64,000 nucleotides of DNA from Geothrix oryzae (lineage in GTDB: Bacteria; Acidobacteriota; Holophagae; Holophagales; Holophagaceae), in assembly GCF_030295385.1 (NCBI RefSeq), contig NZ_AP027079.1, forward strand, positions 1,302,001-1,366,000, given 5' to 3'. Position 1 is the stretch's first letter. Each line of letters begins with the position of its first letter. This document shows positions 2,533-6,830 of the stretch, piece after piece. The notes under the pieces were generated by a model. It saw only the letters and a program-made list of their open reading frames with translations, was not told the origin of the DNA and made no database searches. The translations under genes were made by a program, and so were the position numbers.

Positions 2533-2997
2533 CTACTTGTAGATGCCGCAGCCGACGACGAGGCCGCCTTCCGCCAGGCAGAACGAGGTCTTGTTCTCGA
2601 CCTTGCCCGTGGCGGGATTCTCGACCTTCATGTCGGCCCAGCCGCCGCCCTTCTTCTGGCCGGTCTTGATGATCTCCTGGATGTTGTAGACGCCGTCCGG
2701 GTCCTTCACATTCCAGCGGTTGACGCCGAGGAGGTTGGCCCGGGCCCCGTGGGCCAGCACCACGCCCTTGAGGTCATAGACGAAGAGATAGAGGGTCCCG
2801 CCCTGCTTTACATGGAACCGGCCCTGGGGCTTGTGGACCTCGGCCAGGAAGGCCTCCTTCCCGTTGGCCTTCAGGAAGGCGATGCCCTCCTTCACCATGG
2901 CTTCGGCCTTGGGGCGCTCCGCAGGCTGGGCGAGTAGGGCGGTGGTGATCATGAGGGCGGCGGGCAGGGCCAGCAGGCGACGCGGGTGGATGCTCAT
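2533..2997 (-). CDS. secreted single-Cache domain protein (copy A)
   Basis: 154 residues with a signal peptide (MSIHPRRLLALPAALMITTALLAQ) and one Cache-type sensor domain: a helix with AxxxVKEGIAFLKANGKEAF, then GRFHVKQGGTLYLFVYDL, the NRWNVKDPDG turn and the YK-terminated end. The fold is usually the extracellular ligand-binding part of chemoreceptors and kinases, but here it is free in the periplasm with no signalling domain. ATG 2997 is chosen because AAGGAG lies 7 bases upstream. A paralogue of the same layout lies immediately upstream on the same strand (3085-3540), so the pair arose by tandem duplication. Likely ligands are small organic acids; this is inferred from the family only. Confidence 0.75.
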   Translation of the reverse strand: MSIHPRRLLALPAALMITTALLAQPAERPKAEAMVKEGIAFLKANGKEAFLAEVHKPQGRFHVKQGGTLYLFVYDLKGVVLAHGARANLLGVNRWNVKDPDGVYNIQEIIKTGQKKGGGWADMKVENPATGKVENKTSFCLAEGGLVVGCGIYK

Positions 2998-3084
2998 GGG
3001 CAATCTCCTTCTCAAGCAAACAGGGACTCTCTCCCCCACATTCATCGGCCTGGGCTAAGACCACCTTAAGCTCTCATTTGGAAT

Positions 3085-3540
3085 CTATTTATAGGCGCCG
3101 CAGCCGATGATCCAGCCTTCCATCAGCTCCACATACGAGACCTTGGTCCTGACCTTGCCCGTCGCGGGGTGGGGGTATTTGTAGTCCACCCAGCCGCTGC
3201 CCTTGGCCCGGGCGACGGCGATCATGTCCCGGAGGAAGTGCTTTCCGTCGGGATCCCGCAGGCCGATCCGGTTCGTGCCCACCATCTGGCTCTGGAAGCC
3301 GATGGCCTGGCAGACGCCCTGCAGGTCGTAGACGAAGATGTAGAGCTCTTCCCCGCTTTTCACATGGAACCGGCCCTGGCCGTGGTTGATCTCCCTCAGC
3401 AGGGCCTCTTTTCCATGGCTCTTGGCGAACGCCACCGCCTCCTTCACCAGGGACAGGGCCCGAGCGGGCTGGTCCTGGGCCAGGAGGGGTGGCGCGGTCA
3501 TGCAGAAAAGGGCCGGAATCCATGCATTCCCAGCGTGCAC
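3085..3540 (-). CDS. secreted single-Cache domain protein (copy B)
   Basis: 151 residues, starting at GTG 3540 with AAGGAGG five bases upstream. A short signal peptide (MHAGNAWIPALFCMTAPPLLAQ) leads into a Cache domain that aligns end to end with the protein encoded by 2533-2997: EAVAFAKSHGKEALLREI, GRFHVKSGEELYIFVYDL, NRIGLRDPDG, HPATGK and a terminal CGAYK. The two share the same core but have diverged clearly, so the duplication is old. Copy B is transcribed first, and the pair is probably one operon. No partner kinase or chemoreceptor is seen nearby. Confidence 0.75.
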   Translation of the reverse strand: MHAGNAWIPALFCMTAPPLLAQDQPARALSLVKEAVAFAKSHGKEALLREINHGQGRFHVKSGEELYIFVYDLQGVCQAIGFQSQMVGTNRIGLRDPDGKHFLRDMIAVARAKGSGWVDYKYPHPATGKVRTKVSYVELMEGWIIGCGAYK

Positions 3541-3633
3541 AAGGGCCTCCTTCGGAGGAGAACGGCTACACCTGTAGAGATCGTCCGCTCGGGCGGAAGC
3601 ATGAATCCCGGCAGGGCCTGCCAGACTGGAGGC

Positions 3634-3744
3634 ATGTCCGACGACCGCCTCTACCTGATCGACACCTTCGCCTTCCTTTTCTCGGCATCCGCCGCGCGGA
3701 TGCGCGAGACCTCGCCGTTGAACCGGGAGATGAACCGTGGCTGA
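3634..3744 (+). CDS. 36-residue ORF copying the PolA N-terminus, overlapping polA start
   Basis: The ORF begins MSDDRLYLIDTFAFLF, which matches the PolA start MAEDRLYLIDTFAFIF at 14 of 16 positions, then diverges into an unrelated Arg/Ser-rich tail and stops at 3742-3744, inside the start of polA (GTG 3737). The DNA differs from polA mostly at third codon positions (C-ending here, T-ending in polA), so the likeness is stronger at protein than at DNA level. GGAGG at 3628-3632 sits too close to the ATG to be a good ribosome site. Two small hairpins (3685-3703 and 3704-3715) lie in its second half. It may be a translated leader coupled to polA, or the left-over 5' end of an older polA start. Confidence 0.5.
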   Translation: MSDDRLYLIDTFAFLFSASAARMRETSPLNREMNRG

Positions 3745-6535
3745 GGATCGCCTTTACCTGATTGATACCTTTGCCTTCATTTTTAGGGCCTACTTCGCCA
3801 ATCCCCGGCTGAAAAACGGGGCGGCCTACACCTTCACGCGGCTGGTGCTGCAGCTGCTGGAGAAGCACAAGCCCACCCACATCGCCTGCGTGTTCGATAC
3901 GCCGGAACCCACCTTCCGGCACGAGATCTATCCCGAGTACAAGGCCAACCGCGACGCCATGCCCGAGGACCTGCGACCGCAGATCCCCATGATCCGGCAG
4001 CTGGTGGAGGCGCTGAACATCCCCATCGTGGAGCTGCATGGCTACGAGGCGGACGATGTCATGGGCACCCTGGCCCGGGAATCCGCCGCCCACGGCCTTC
4101 CCGCGGTCATCGTCAGCCCCGACAAGGACCTGCTGCAGCTGGTGGACGACGGGCTGCGCATCCAGGTGTTGAACACCAAGGACGGCGAAGTCTGGCATGA
4201 CCGCGAGGGCGTGAAGACCCGCATGGGCGTGTGGCCCGAGCAGGTGGTGGACTTCCTGAGCCTGGTGGGGGACGCCTCCGACAATGTGAAGGGCGTGCCC
4301 GGCATCGGCGAAAAGGGCGCAGCGCTGCTGCTGGAGAAGTTCGGCAACCTCGACGGCGTCATCGCCGGCAAGGCTGAGCTCAAGCCCAAGCAGCGCGAAG
4401 GCCTGGACACCGCCGCCGCGTGGCTGGAGCTCACCCGGCGCCTGGTCACCGTGGTGACCGACCTCAAGCTGTCCCTGCATCCGAAGGATCTCGCCTATCC
4501 CGGCGTGGACGAGGCCAAGGCCCGGGAGACCTTCAAGGCCCTGGGTTTCCAGACCCTCACCAAGGAGTTCACCCAGAGCGCCGAGCAGGCGGGCAGCGCG
4601 CGGACCTATCGGGCCGCCTCCACCGTGGCGGACCTCGAGGCGGCCGTGGCGGCCTGCCGCGCGGCCGGTCGCTTCGGCCTCGACACGGAGACCACCAGCA
4701 TCGATCCCACGCGGGGCCACCTGGTGGGCCTCAGCCTGGCCTGGGCACCCAACGAGGGGCTCTATGTGCCGCTGGCCCACCTGAAGCCCGCCACCGCGGA
4801 CACGGAAGGCTCTCTGCCGGGCCTGCTACCGGACTCGGGCCTGCCCGAATCGCTGCTGGACCTTCGGGGCGATGCGGTGGGCTTCTTCTCGGAACTGGCG
4901 CCCCACCTGGACCCCCGCAATGTGCCCTTCGCGGAGGCCCGGCGCGTCCTCGCGCCGCTGCTGGCGGATGCCTCCGTCGGGAAGTGCGGCCAGAACCTGA
5001 AGTACGATTTGCAGGTGCTGACCCGTCATGGCTTGCCCGTGGCGGGCTTGGCGGACGACAGCATGGTGCTGAGCTTCCTGCTGGAGAGCGGCGTCCGCCA
5101 CAACCTGGATGACCTGTCCGTGCGCCTGCTCGATGTGAAGCCGATCGCCTTCGAGGAGGTGGTGGGGAAGGGGAAGAGCCAGAAGCGCTTTGACGAGGCC
5201 GTGTTCGAGCAGGCGGTGCAGTACGCTGCGGAAGATGCCGACCTGGCCCTGCAGCTCTGCGACAAGCTGCGGACGAGGTTCGCCGACGACCGGATGAAGC
5301 GCCTCTACGAAGAGGTGGACCTCCCGCTCGTGGAGGTTCTGGCGGCCCTCGAAGGCCATGGCGTCCGCCTGGATTTGAATGTGCTTTCCCAGCTCGCCGT
5401 GCGCATGCACGGTGAGCGCGAACGGGCCCAAGCCCGTGTCATCGAACTCGCGGGCGAGCCTTTCAACCTGAACAGCCCCACCCAGCTGGGGGCGATCCTC
5501 TTCGGCAAGCTGGGTTACAAGCCCGTGAAGTTCACGGGCAAGACCAAGGCGCCCAGCACCGACGAGGATGTGCTGCAGGAATTGGCCAAGGCGCAGGGTG
5601 CGGAGATCGCCAGCGAGCTGTTGCGGCACCGCCAGATGGTGAAGCTGCTGGGCACCTATGTGGAGGCTCTGCCGCAGATGGTGAACCCCGTGACCAAGCG
5701 CGTGCACACGCGCCTGCACCAGGCGGCCGTGGCCTCGGGGCGGCTGGCCTCCAGCGATCCCAACCTCCAGAACATCCCCATCCGCACCGAGGAGGGCCGG
5801 GCCATCCGCGGGGCTTTCGTGCCCGAACCCGGCTGGGTTCTGCTGGATGCGGACTACAGCCAGATCGAACTGCGGGTGGTGGCGGCCCTGGCCGAGGATC
5901 CCGTCCTGCTGGGCGCCTTCGCCGCGGGTGAGGACATCCACCGCCGGACGGCCTCCGAGGTCTTCGGCGTGCCCATGGAGACCGTCACCTCCGATCAGCG
6001 CAGCGCCTCCAAGGCGGTCAACTTCGGCCTGCTCTACGGGCAGGGGGCCTTCGCCCTCGCCGCCAACATCGGCGTCAGCCAGAAGGAGGCCAAGGCCTTC
6101 ATCGAACGCTACTTCGAGCGCATGCCGAAGGTGGCGGCCTGGATTGAGGGCGCCAAGGAGCGGGCCCTGGCCGAAGGCCTCGTCCGCACCCACTGGGGCC
6201 GCATCCGTCTGATCCCCGAGTTGGAGAGTCCCAACAAGCAGTTCCAGGCCCAGGGGCTGCGCGAAGCCGTGAACACTATCGTTCAGGGTACGGCCGCCGA
6301 CCTCATGCGCCGGGCCATGGTGCGCCTGCACCGCAGCCTCCAGGTCTCAGGCCTCCGGGCCAGGCTGCTGCTCCAGGTCCATGACGAACTCTTGATGGAG
6401 GCGCCGCCGGAAGAAGTGGACCGGGCCGCCGCTCTCCTGAAGGACGCCATGGAAGGCGCCGACGATCTGGGCGCCCTGGGCGTGAAGCTGGCGGCGGAAG
6501 TCCGCACGGGCGACAGCTGGCTGGCCTGCAAGTAG
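3737..6535 (+). CDS. polA: DNA polymerase I
   Basis: 932 residues, very close to the usual length. Order: 5'-3' exonuclease (residues 1-~300, with YEADDVMGTLAR and the helix-hairpin GDASDNVKGVPGIGEKGA), 3'-5' proofreading exonuclease (starting near residue 315 with the active-site pair in LDTETTSID, so proofreading is kept), and the polymerase domain with motif A DADYSQIELRV (~704), motif B RSASKAVNFGLLYG and motif C QVHDELLMEA. It fills gaps after primer removal and in excision repair. The start is GTG 3737 with CGGGAGA six bases upstream; the first codons use T-ending synonyms unlike the rest of the gene. A short ORF overlapping the start repeats its first 16 residues. Confidence 0.97.
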   Translation: MAEDRLYLIDTFAFIFRAYFANPRLKNGAAYTFTRLVLQLLEKHKPTHIACVFDTPEPTFRHEIYPEYKANRDAMPEDLRPQIPMIRQLVEALNIPIVELHGYEADDVMGTLARESAAHGLPAVIVSPDKDLLQLVDDGLRIQVLNTKDGEVWHDREGVKTRMGVWPEQVVDFLSLVGDASDNVKGVPGIGEKGAALLLEKFGNLDGVIAGKAELKPKQREGLDTAAAWLELTRRLVTVVTDLKLSLHPKDLAYPGVDEAKARETFKALGFQTLTKEFTQSAEQAGSARTYRAASTVADLEAAVAACRAAGRFGLDTETTSIDPTRGHLVGLSLAWAPNEGLYVPLAHLKPATADTEGSLPGLLPDSGLPESLLDLRGDAVGFFSELAPHLDPRNVPFAEARRVLAPLLADASVGKCGQNLKYDLQVLTRHGLPVAGLADDSMVLSFLLESGVRHNLDDLSVRLLDVKPIAFEEVVGKGKSQKRFDEAVFEQAVQYAAEDADLALQLCDKLRTRFADDRMKRLYEEVDLPLVEVLAALEGHGVRLDLNVLSQLAVRMHGERERAQARVIELAGEPFNLNSPTQLGAILFGKLGYKPVKFTGKTKAPSTDEDVLQELAKAQGAEIASELLRHRQMVKLLGTYVEALPQMVNPVTKRVHTRLHQAAVASGRLASSDPNLQNIPIRTEEGRAIRGAFVPEPGWVLLDADYSQIELRVVAALAEDPVLLGAFAAGEDIHRRTASEVFGVPMETVTSDQRSASKAVNFGLLYGQGAFALAANIGVSQKEAKAFIERYFERMPKVAAWIEGAKERALAEGLVRTHWGRIRLIPELESPNKQFQAQGLREAVNTIVQGTAADLMRRAMVRLHRSLQVSGLRARLLLQVHDELLMEAPPEEVDRAAALLKDAMEGADDLGALGVKLAAEVRTGDSWLACK

Positions 6536-6830
6536 GCGACCCCTACCTCGGGGAAACATGAACCGCAGAGAGCACAGAGAAGCGATTTCCATGCTCTGCG
6601 GCCTCTGCGCCCTCTGTGGTTAGCCCACTTTATCCGCCCCGGCACCGTCCTGACCCTGAGGGTGGCTGGTGGAGGGTTTGACACTTTGTCGGGGGATGTT
6701 CCCGGATCAGGCGATTTCTGGGGGTTTTGTGATGGCTGCCCGGGCTCAAACTTAACGGGGAGGTCATGATTGGCGGGTCTGGTGCGGGAGCGCACCGCAG
6801 CCCCAGTCCCCTTCCTGCAGGAGTCTGAAC
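6536..6830. other. 295-bp intergenic region between polA and the dehydrogenase operon
   Basis: No gene seen. It holds a dispersed-type palindromic repeat (6561-6621) and then an unstructured stretch leading to the operon start, where GGAG lies 8 bases before ATG 6831. GTTTGACACTTT at about 6677 contains a TTGACA-like -35 element and could belong to the operon promoter, but no convincing -10 was found at the right distance. Confidence 0.4.
6561..6621. repeat. imperfect palindrome of the AACC-CAGAG type
   Basis: The left arm AACCGCAGAGAGCACAGAG (from 6561) pairs with the right arm ending CTCTGCGCCCTCTGTGGTT (to 6621), 22 positions with a few mismatches. It contains three CTCTG/CAGAG units in each sense. 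This kind of sequence occurs as many dispersed intergenic copies in some bacterial genomes; only one copy is present in this window, so the repeat status is inferred. Confidence 0.5.

Follow-up and report, generated by a model that had tools for sequence, protein, structure and literature searches.

The 36-codon open reading frame that precedes polA in the window, the 64-kb stretch of DNA analysed here from a complete 3.27-Mb genome of the soil bacterium Geothrix (labelled G000), is the former polA start, severed from its gene by a 103-bp insertion. Our best explanation as a whole, to which we assign a probability of roughly 0.7, is that a member of a palindromic repeat family entered the 5′ end of polA together with a copy of that gene end, and that the cut-off start now acts as a translationally coupled leader. 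Comparison of genomes documents the insertion, the empty sites in relatives, the family of repeats, the duplication of gene ends, the constant frame and the overlap of stop and start.

Organization of the polA 5′ end

The polA region of the window comprises the following features:

3580–3633, forward strand: native polA upstream region (ends ...CCTGCCAGACTGGAGGC), directly 5′ of the old start codon; the same DNA precedes uninterrupted polA in insert-free relatives
3634–3744, forward strand: mini-ORF of 36 codons, composed of the old polA start, palindrome and spacer, with its stop inside the new polA start
3634–3680, forward strand: A1, first copy of the polA 5′ end, severed from the gene; matches the uninterrupted starts of relatives
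3681–3708, forward strand: palindromic element CTCGGCATCCGCCGCGCGGATGCGCGAG, with a 12-bp stem, one bulged G and a 3-base loop
3709–3736, forward strand: 28-bp spacer with a new Shine-Dalgarno-like GGGAG at 3725–3729 (GGAGGTG in most relatives)
3737–3783, forward strand: A2, second copy of the polA 5′ end (47 bp), the working start, continuing into PolA
3681–3783, forward strand: 103-bp insertion unit, whose boundaries can slide along the direct repeat
3737–6535, forward strand: polA, DNA polymerase I, 932 aa (Pfam 5_3_exonuc_N, 5_3_exonuc, DNA_pol_A_exo1, DNA_pol_A)

In order, the insert holds the 28-bp palindrome, 28 bp with a new ribosome-binding site, and the first 47 bp of the gene a second time. 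Over residues 1–16 the mini-ORF reads MSDDRLYLIDTFAFLF against (V/M)AEDRLYLIDTFAFIF in PolA, with 13 of 16 residues identical when GTG is read as M; the original prediction had recognized this likeness but counted 14. Nine codons differ over residues 2–16, six of them silently and three with a change of residue, in keeping with the earlier view that the differences are mostly silent. DNA identity is 77% over 48 bp and drops to the background level past about codon 16, where the predicted divergence sets in; the divergent part contains the palindrome, which sits after codon 15 and is the only copy within the window. The stop codon (TGA, 3742–3744) lies 5 nt inside polA (GTG at 3737), so that the two ORFs overlap by 8 nt, as had been proposed. 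The resemblance to the PolA N-terminus is evidently not due to chance, since the 36-aa peptide has no further match in its own genome apart from polA and the same arrangement recurs at polA of many congeners.

Other features were noted nearby. A conserved TGCCAGACTGGNGGC or TTCTGAGACACTGG motif (3600–3633 in the window) ends exactly at the old polA start codon in congeners, and the native polA mRNA may be leaderless. Upstream, on the minus strand, 2533–3045 and 3085–3540 encode adjacent paralogous small secreted-type proteins with similar C-termini (...GCGIYK and ...GCGAYK). Directly after polA, positions 6560–6625 hold a REP-like, inverted-repeat-like stretch (CCGCAGAGAGCACAGAG ... CTCTGCGGCCTCTGCGCCCTCTGTGG).

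Empty and filled polA sites in congeners

In insert-free congeners, polA begins ATG(T/C/A)C(T/C)GAAGACCGCC..., and the DNA 5′ of this uninterrupted gene matches the DNA 5′ of the mini-ORF, not the DNA 5′ of the present polA start. This match indicates that the mini-ORF is the old polA start, cut off by the 103-bp insertion. Empty sites were found in a genome labelled as the same species (G044) and in close relatives: the alignment of G000 with G044 contains one 103-bp gap and is 97.4% identical over its other 650 bp, and G001 and G021 likewise differ at polA by one 103-bp gap. Because the polA start of G044 bears the E3D change of the cut-off copy, we infer that this genome may have lost the insert by recombination between the repeats.

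Comparison of the polA 5′ region among relatives, as proposed in the original prediction, revealed the same arrangement in many congeners: the insert is present in 17 of the 36 genomes read, as one, two or three tandem 103-bp units. An uninterrupted frame from 3634 into PolA in relatives had been put forward as the sign of a sequencing artefact; such a frame exists, but as true empty sites, and an artefact of sequencing or assembly is ruled out by the occurrence of the insert in many genomes, named isolates included, with 1–3 units. Placing the insert on a tree of the polA body takes 12 changes, of which well-supported branches force at least 9. This is no fewer than with shuffled labels, so the order of gains and losses is not derivable from the tree.

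The two polA copies

For codons 4–15, silent and residue-changing differences numbered 33 and 1 in uninterrupted starts, 46 and 3 in the working copy (A2), and 36 and 15 in the cut-off copy (A1), indicating that the working copy is constrained and the cut-off copy relaxed, though not free. This incomplete relaxation may stem from frequent loss and re-gain, or from a role of the cut-off copy as an initiation region. The richness of polA in T-ending codons relative to the copy, noted originally in one genome, is borne out across species: their fraction reaches 0.33 in the working start, against 0.17 in the cut-off copy and 0.13 where the start is uninterrupted. It fits a start that needs to stay unstructured; a single ancestry of the working copy may also explain it.

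The second codon of the working copy is GCT in 16 of 17 inserts, a codon never seen at this position in uninterrupted starts. Moreover, working copies resemble each other more (0.890) than they resemble their own adjoining first copy (0.845). These two observations rule out fresh, independent polA insertions in each species and make a single ancestry of the polA cassette most likely, whether it descended with numerous losses, moved from species to species by recombination, or did both.

A family of palindromes in Geothrix

The family pattern, CTCGG(T/C)ATC-N9-GAT(A/G)C(A/G)CGAG, was found in all 47 congeners, whereas the reversed pattern used as a control gave zero matches among the same 47 genomes. 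In a public scan for exact matches, those listed were almost all on Holophagaceae/Acidobacteria contigs; one palindrome contig (L220) is labelled as a Rhizobiales MAG and is possibly a mis-binned Holophagaceae contig. The stem is present in the predicted RNA fold of the polA palindrome, and its bases covary across the family through compensating changes. At the orthologous uppS site, we counted 11 double changes in the stem against 3.3 expected, a value reached in 0 of 500 shuffles.

No match to the palindrome was found in Rfam, nor an exact one among IMG/VR viral contigs, which leaves carriage by phage without support, and a scan for sigma-70 promoters and terminators found nothing. The Y1 transposase (PF01797) was absent from G000 and from 14 of the 15 congeners searched, and present in 1 of 15; given this absence, it is unsupported as the mover of the palindrome. 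We found no description of this family in the open-licence literature.

Many intergenic palindromes are followed by AC(A/G)AAC-GATATCTG-like DNA and lie partly within larger inverted repeats. Among them, L143, L146, L161 and L162 sit in such repeats (e.g. ACCACCAAGACACCAAG...CTTGGTGTCTTGGTGGT) before the AC(A/G)AAC-GATATCTG-like DNA; palindromes of this type are possibly a longer, separate mobile form.

Duplicated gene ends at about 25 genes

The original prediction overlooked two points: a dispersed palindromic repeat makes up the stretch after codon 15, and about 25 genes, polA among them, are affected. At 87 of the 177 distinct palindrome sites with enough flank, the left flank is duplicated exactly at the palindrome edge and resumes on the right. 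These 87 sites fall into 26 gene clusters, representing about 25 genes that include polA, uppS, rpsT, folP, cydB and rdgB. The repeat unit measures 99–108 bp in most clusters and 154–215 bp in the longer ones; the copied gene end is about 75 bp at most sites, and the copied piece restores the end of the gene. No flanking duplication is detectable at about half of the palindrome copies, many of them intergenic; the palindrome is thus able to occur with its target unduplicated.

The targets at 5′ ends include polA, uppS, a folP-type pterin-binding enzyme, two nucleotidyl transferases, cydB, a Ham1/rdgB protein, a MacB/FtsX permease, an amino-acid kinase, an amino-acid permease, a ThiF protein and a DUF502 protein. 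Those at 3′ ends include rpsT, several biotin/lipoyl carriers, an NFACT-type protein, two nuoJ-type genes, a succinate dehydrogenase-type flavoprotein, a response regulator, an adenosine deaminase and a 2-oxoacid dehydrogenase E2. A census of G000 by pattern searches placed the following arrangements in the same genome as the window:

G000:C1:443411-443566 (L374): rpsT
G000:C1:3228296-3228602 (L339): uppS
G000:C1:1933903 (L125): amino-acid permease
G000:C1:297386 (L116): NFACT-type gene

The rpsT site is occupied in G000 and vacant in its sister G002, and one 106-bp gap separates the two. At uppS, most, indeed nearly all, of the congeners read are filled, with up to three units. At polA and uppS the spacer has lost its resemblance to the DNA that precedes the first copy, so that a duplicated upstream part is demonstrated only at the better-preserved rpsT, manC and L243.

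Paralogous biotin/lipoyl carriers (L195, L199, L203 and L226) were struck at the same conserved spot, the MKM motif, a coincidence that hints at sequence-specific targeting or at spread between paralogs. Within genes, two tandem 42-bp palindrome units lie in frame in a 303-codon ORF (L187, a TANGO2/NRDE gene), and one in-frame palindrome lies near the end of a 925-codon ORF (L224).

Fixed frame, orientation and stop–start overlap

A T-rich target precedes the palindrome at gene ends, and both the orientation of the palindrome to the copied gene end and its reading frame are constant in all assigned clusters (2 of 27 clusters, L142 and L330, have no gene assignment and were left out of the tally). 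At 5′ ends (12 clusters) the sense reading is S-V-S-x-A-x-I-R-E, and in the other 13 clusters (3′ ends and one internal site) the antisense reading is V-S-R-I-x-x-x-D-T-E. The T-rich target combined with the codon usage of this GC-rich genome accounts for the fixed frame only in part: about two-thirds of YTT sites are in the observed phase, against all of the approximately 25 clusters.

At genes hit at the 5′ end the cut-off ORF runs on through the palindrome, and in 11 of 13 of them its stop falls within −4 to +8 bases of the actual start, whereas in the two other frames, used as controls, a stop fell in that range in 0 of 28 cases (Fisher P 8e-9). This placement gives the predicted translational coupling of the cut-off ORF to the rebuilt start good anatomical support. 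All 17 polA leaders have the same length, end in TGA, keep the exact 103-bp period and contain no premature stop; 2.75 premature stops would be expected, a weakly significant deficit (P about 0.05) among sequences that are not independent. In some species the coupling stop is absent at uppS. At 3′ sites, where the palindrome lies beyond the stop and terminator, we looked for a coupling rule and found none.

A coupled translation leader and an integration scar had been offered as alternatives, and each turned out to be partly right. The scar is borne out by the native upstream DNA before the mini-ORF and by the empty sites in relatives, and the anatomy of a leader by the 17 polA inserts and 11 of 13 independent genes; what falls is the either/or, as both descriptions appear to apply.

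Discussion

We propose that palindromes of about 28 bp in Geothrix (Holophagaceae, Acidobacteriota) enter gene ends after a T-rich target, in fixed orientation and frame, and that the copy of the gene end accompanying the palindrome would leave the gene whole. In polA, the palindrome lies after codon 15, with a fresh ribosome-binding site and start codon behind it (103 bp in total), and the old start, still behind its native upstream DNA, became the 36-codon ORF. Ribosomes that initiate at the old start would then continue across the palindrome, terminate at the overlapping TGA and reinitiate at the GTG of polA, and in this way the leader would feed polA translation. Units are probably lost, multiplied and re-acquired through recombination between the direct repeats, and the polA cassette may also pass between species.

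Other origins of the insert can be envisaged. It could be neutral debris of an old palindromic element, with a non-functional leader ORF whose stop–start overlap and open frame are leftovers. The relaxed protein constraint on the first copy (36 silent, 15 changing), the scattered and often lost polA insert and its disappearance without trace in G044 would suit such debris, but we rate it rather unlikely in view of the stop–start overlap at 11/13 genes against 0/28 control frames, the exact 103-bp period with zero premature stops in 17/17 polA inserts, and the restriction of T-rich codons to the downstream start. Selection may instead have kept the hairpin leaders as regulators of the genes downstream, either attenuators or autoregulatory sites, with the mini-ORF as a sensor. 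Although retention at uppS in nearly all congeners read, stem pairing maintained by compensating changes and the location of the palindrome within the leader at 5′ sites speak for regulation, a palindrome beyond the stop and terminator, as at 3′ sites, cannot attenuate that gene; the polA insert is also missing in about half the species, and no Rfam match was found. Template switching can correct palindromes as well, and we consider selected regulation quite improbable.

Highly improbable, in our judgement, is a scar of a classical integrative element (attL/attR), whose body was deleted and left two copies of the gene end. Integrases have one target site each, whereas the same palindrome occurs at about 25 unrelated genes, at 5′ as well as 3′ ends. 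No larger element lies between the copies in any congener examined, and IMG/VR yielded no match. In favour of such a scar, known from SXT in prfC and islands in dusA, the downstream copy carries a distinct codon usage and second codon, which resembles the case of an element that supplies a new 5′ coding end (PMC8409611).

Insertion of a palindrome with its gene-end copy and putative coupled leader has partial parallels. Integrative elements in gene 5′ ends, such as SXT in prfC and islands in dusA, supply a new 5′ coding end; as in Geothrix, the old start is severed and new signals are provided (PMC8409611). The Geothrix unit differs in consisting of 28 bp plus the copied gene end, with no element body, many targets and 3′ ends among them, and in that the native upstream DNA apparently continues to drive the gene by way of the coupled leader. 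Rickettsia palindromic elements (RPE) and intragenic REPs of the GTAG and CGTC families are small palindromes in the reading frames of unrelated genes, and they too reach genes for the repair and replication of DNA, polA among them (PMC10969869, PMC3733652). Some copies in Geothrix also lie in frame inside genes (L187, L224), the only sites where an in-gene protein is read through the palindrome; at polA the frame ends at TGA 3742. RPEs lengthen the protein, whereas at most genic sites in Geothrix the gene end is duplicated instead, with no lengthening of the protein. The Geothrix palindrome also appears to have another sequence, with no GTAG/CGTC tag seen, and belongs to another phylum.

With REP/RAYT systems, the family shares a short, imperfect, bulged palindrome dispersed in many copies, intergenic ones included, but not the Y1 tyrosine transposase, of which none was found in G000 and 14/15 congeners searched; gene-end copies are not among the REP features in the literature compared. 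The stop overlaps or abuts the next start, as in translationally coupled leader ORFs, in 17/17 polA inserts and at 11/13 genes, the difference being that the Geothrix leader is a cut-off copy of the start of the same gene plus a mobile palindrome.

These comparisons lead us to a tentative proposal, somewhat short of even odds, of a class of mobile palindromes in which insertion and copying of about 75 bp of the gene end are one event in fixed orientation and frame, essential genes survive, and coupled leader ORFs are the signature. The near-constant unit length and fixed frame, with no known transposase, offer a lead to the insertion mechanism, and many natural variants of start codon and leader are available for studies of coupling. 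Among the annotated starts and small ORFs of Geothrix there may be leftovers of palindrome insertion, and these should be read with that in mind. If the proposed explanation is true, selfish DNA could reside in essential genes and leave them intact, with a copy replacing the gene end and the severed start becoming a coupled leader.
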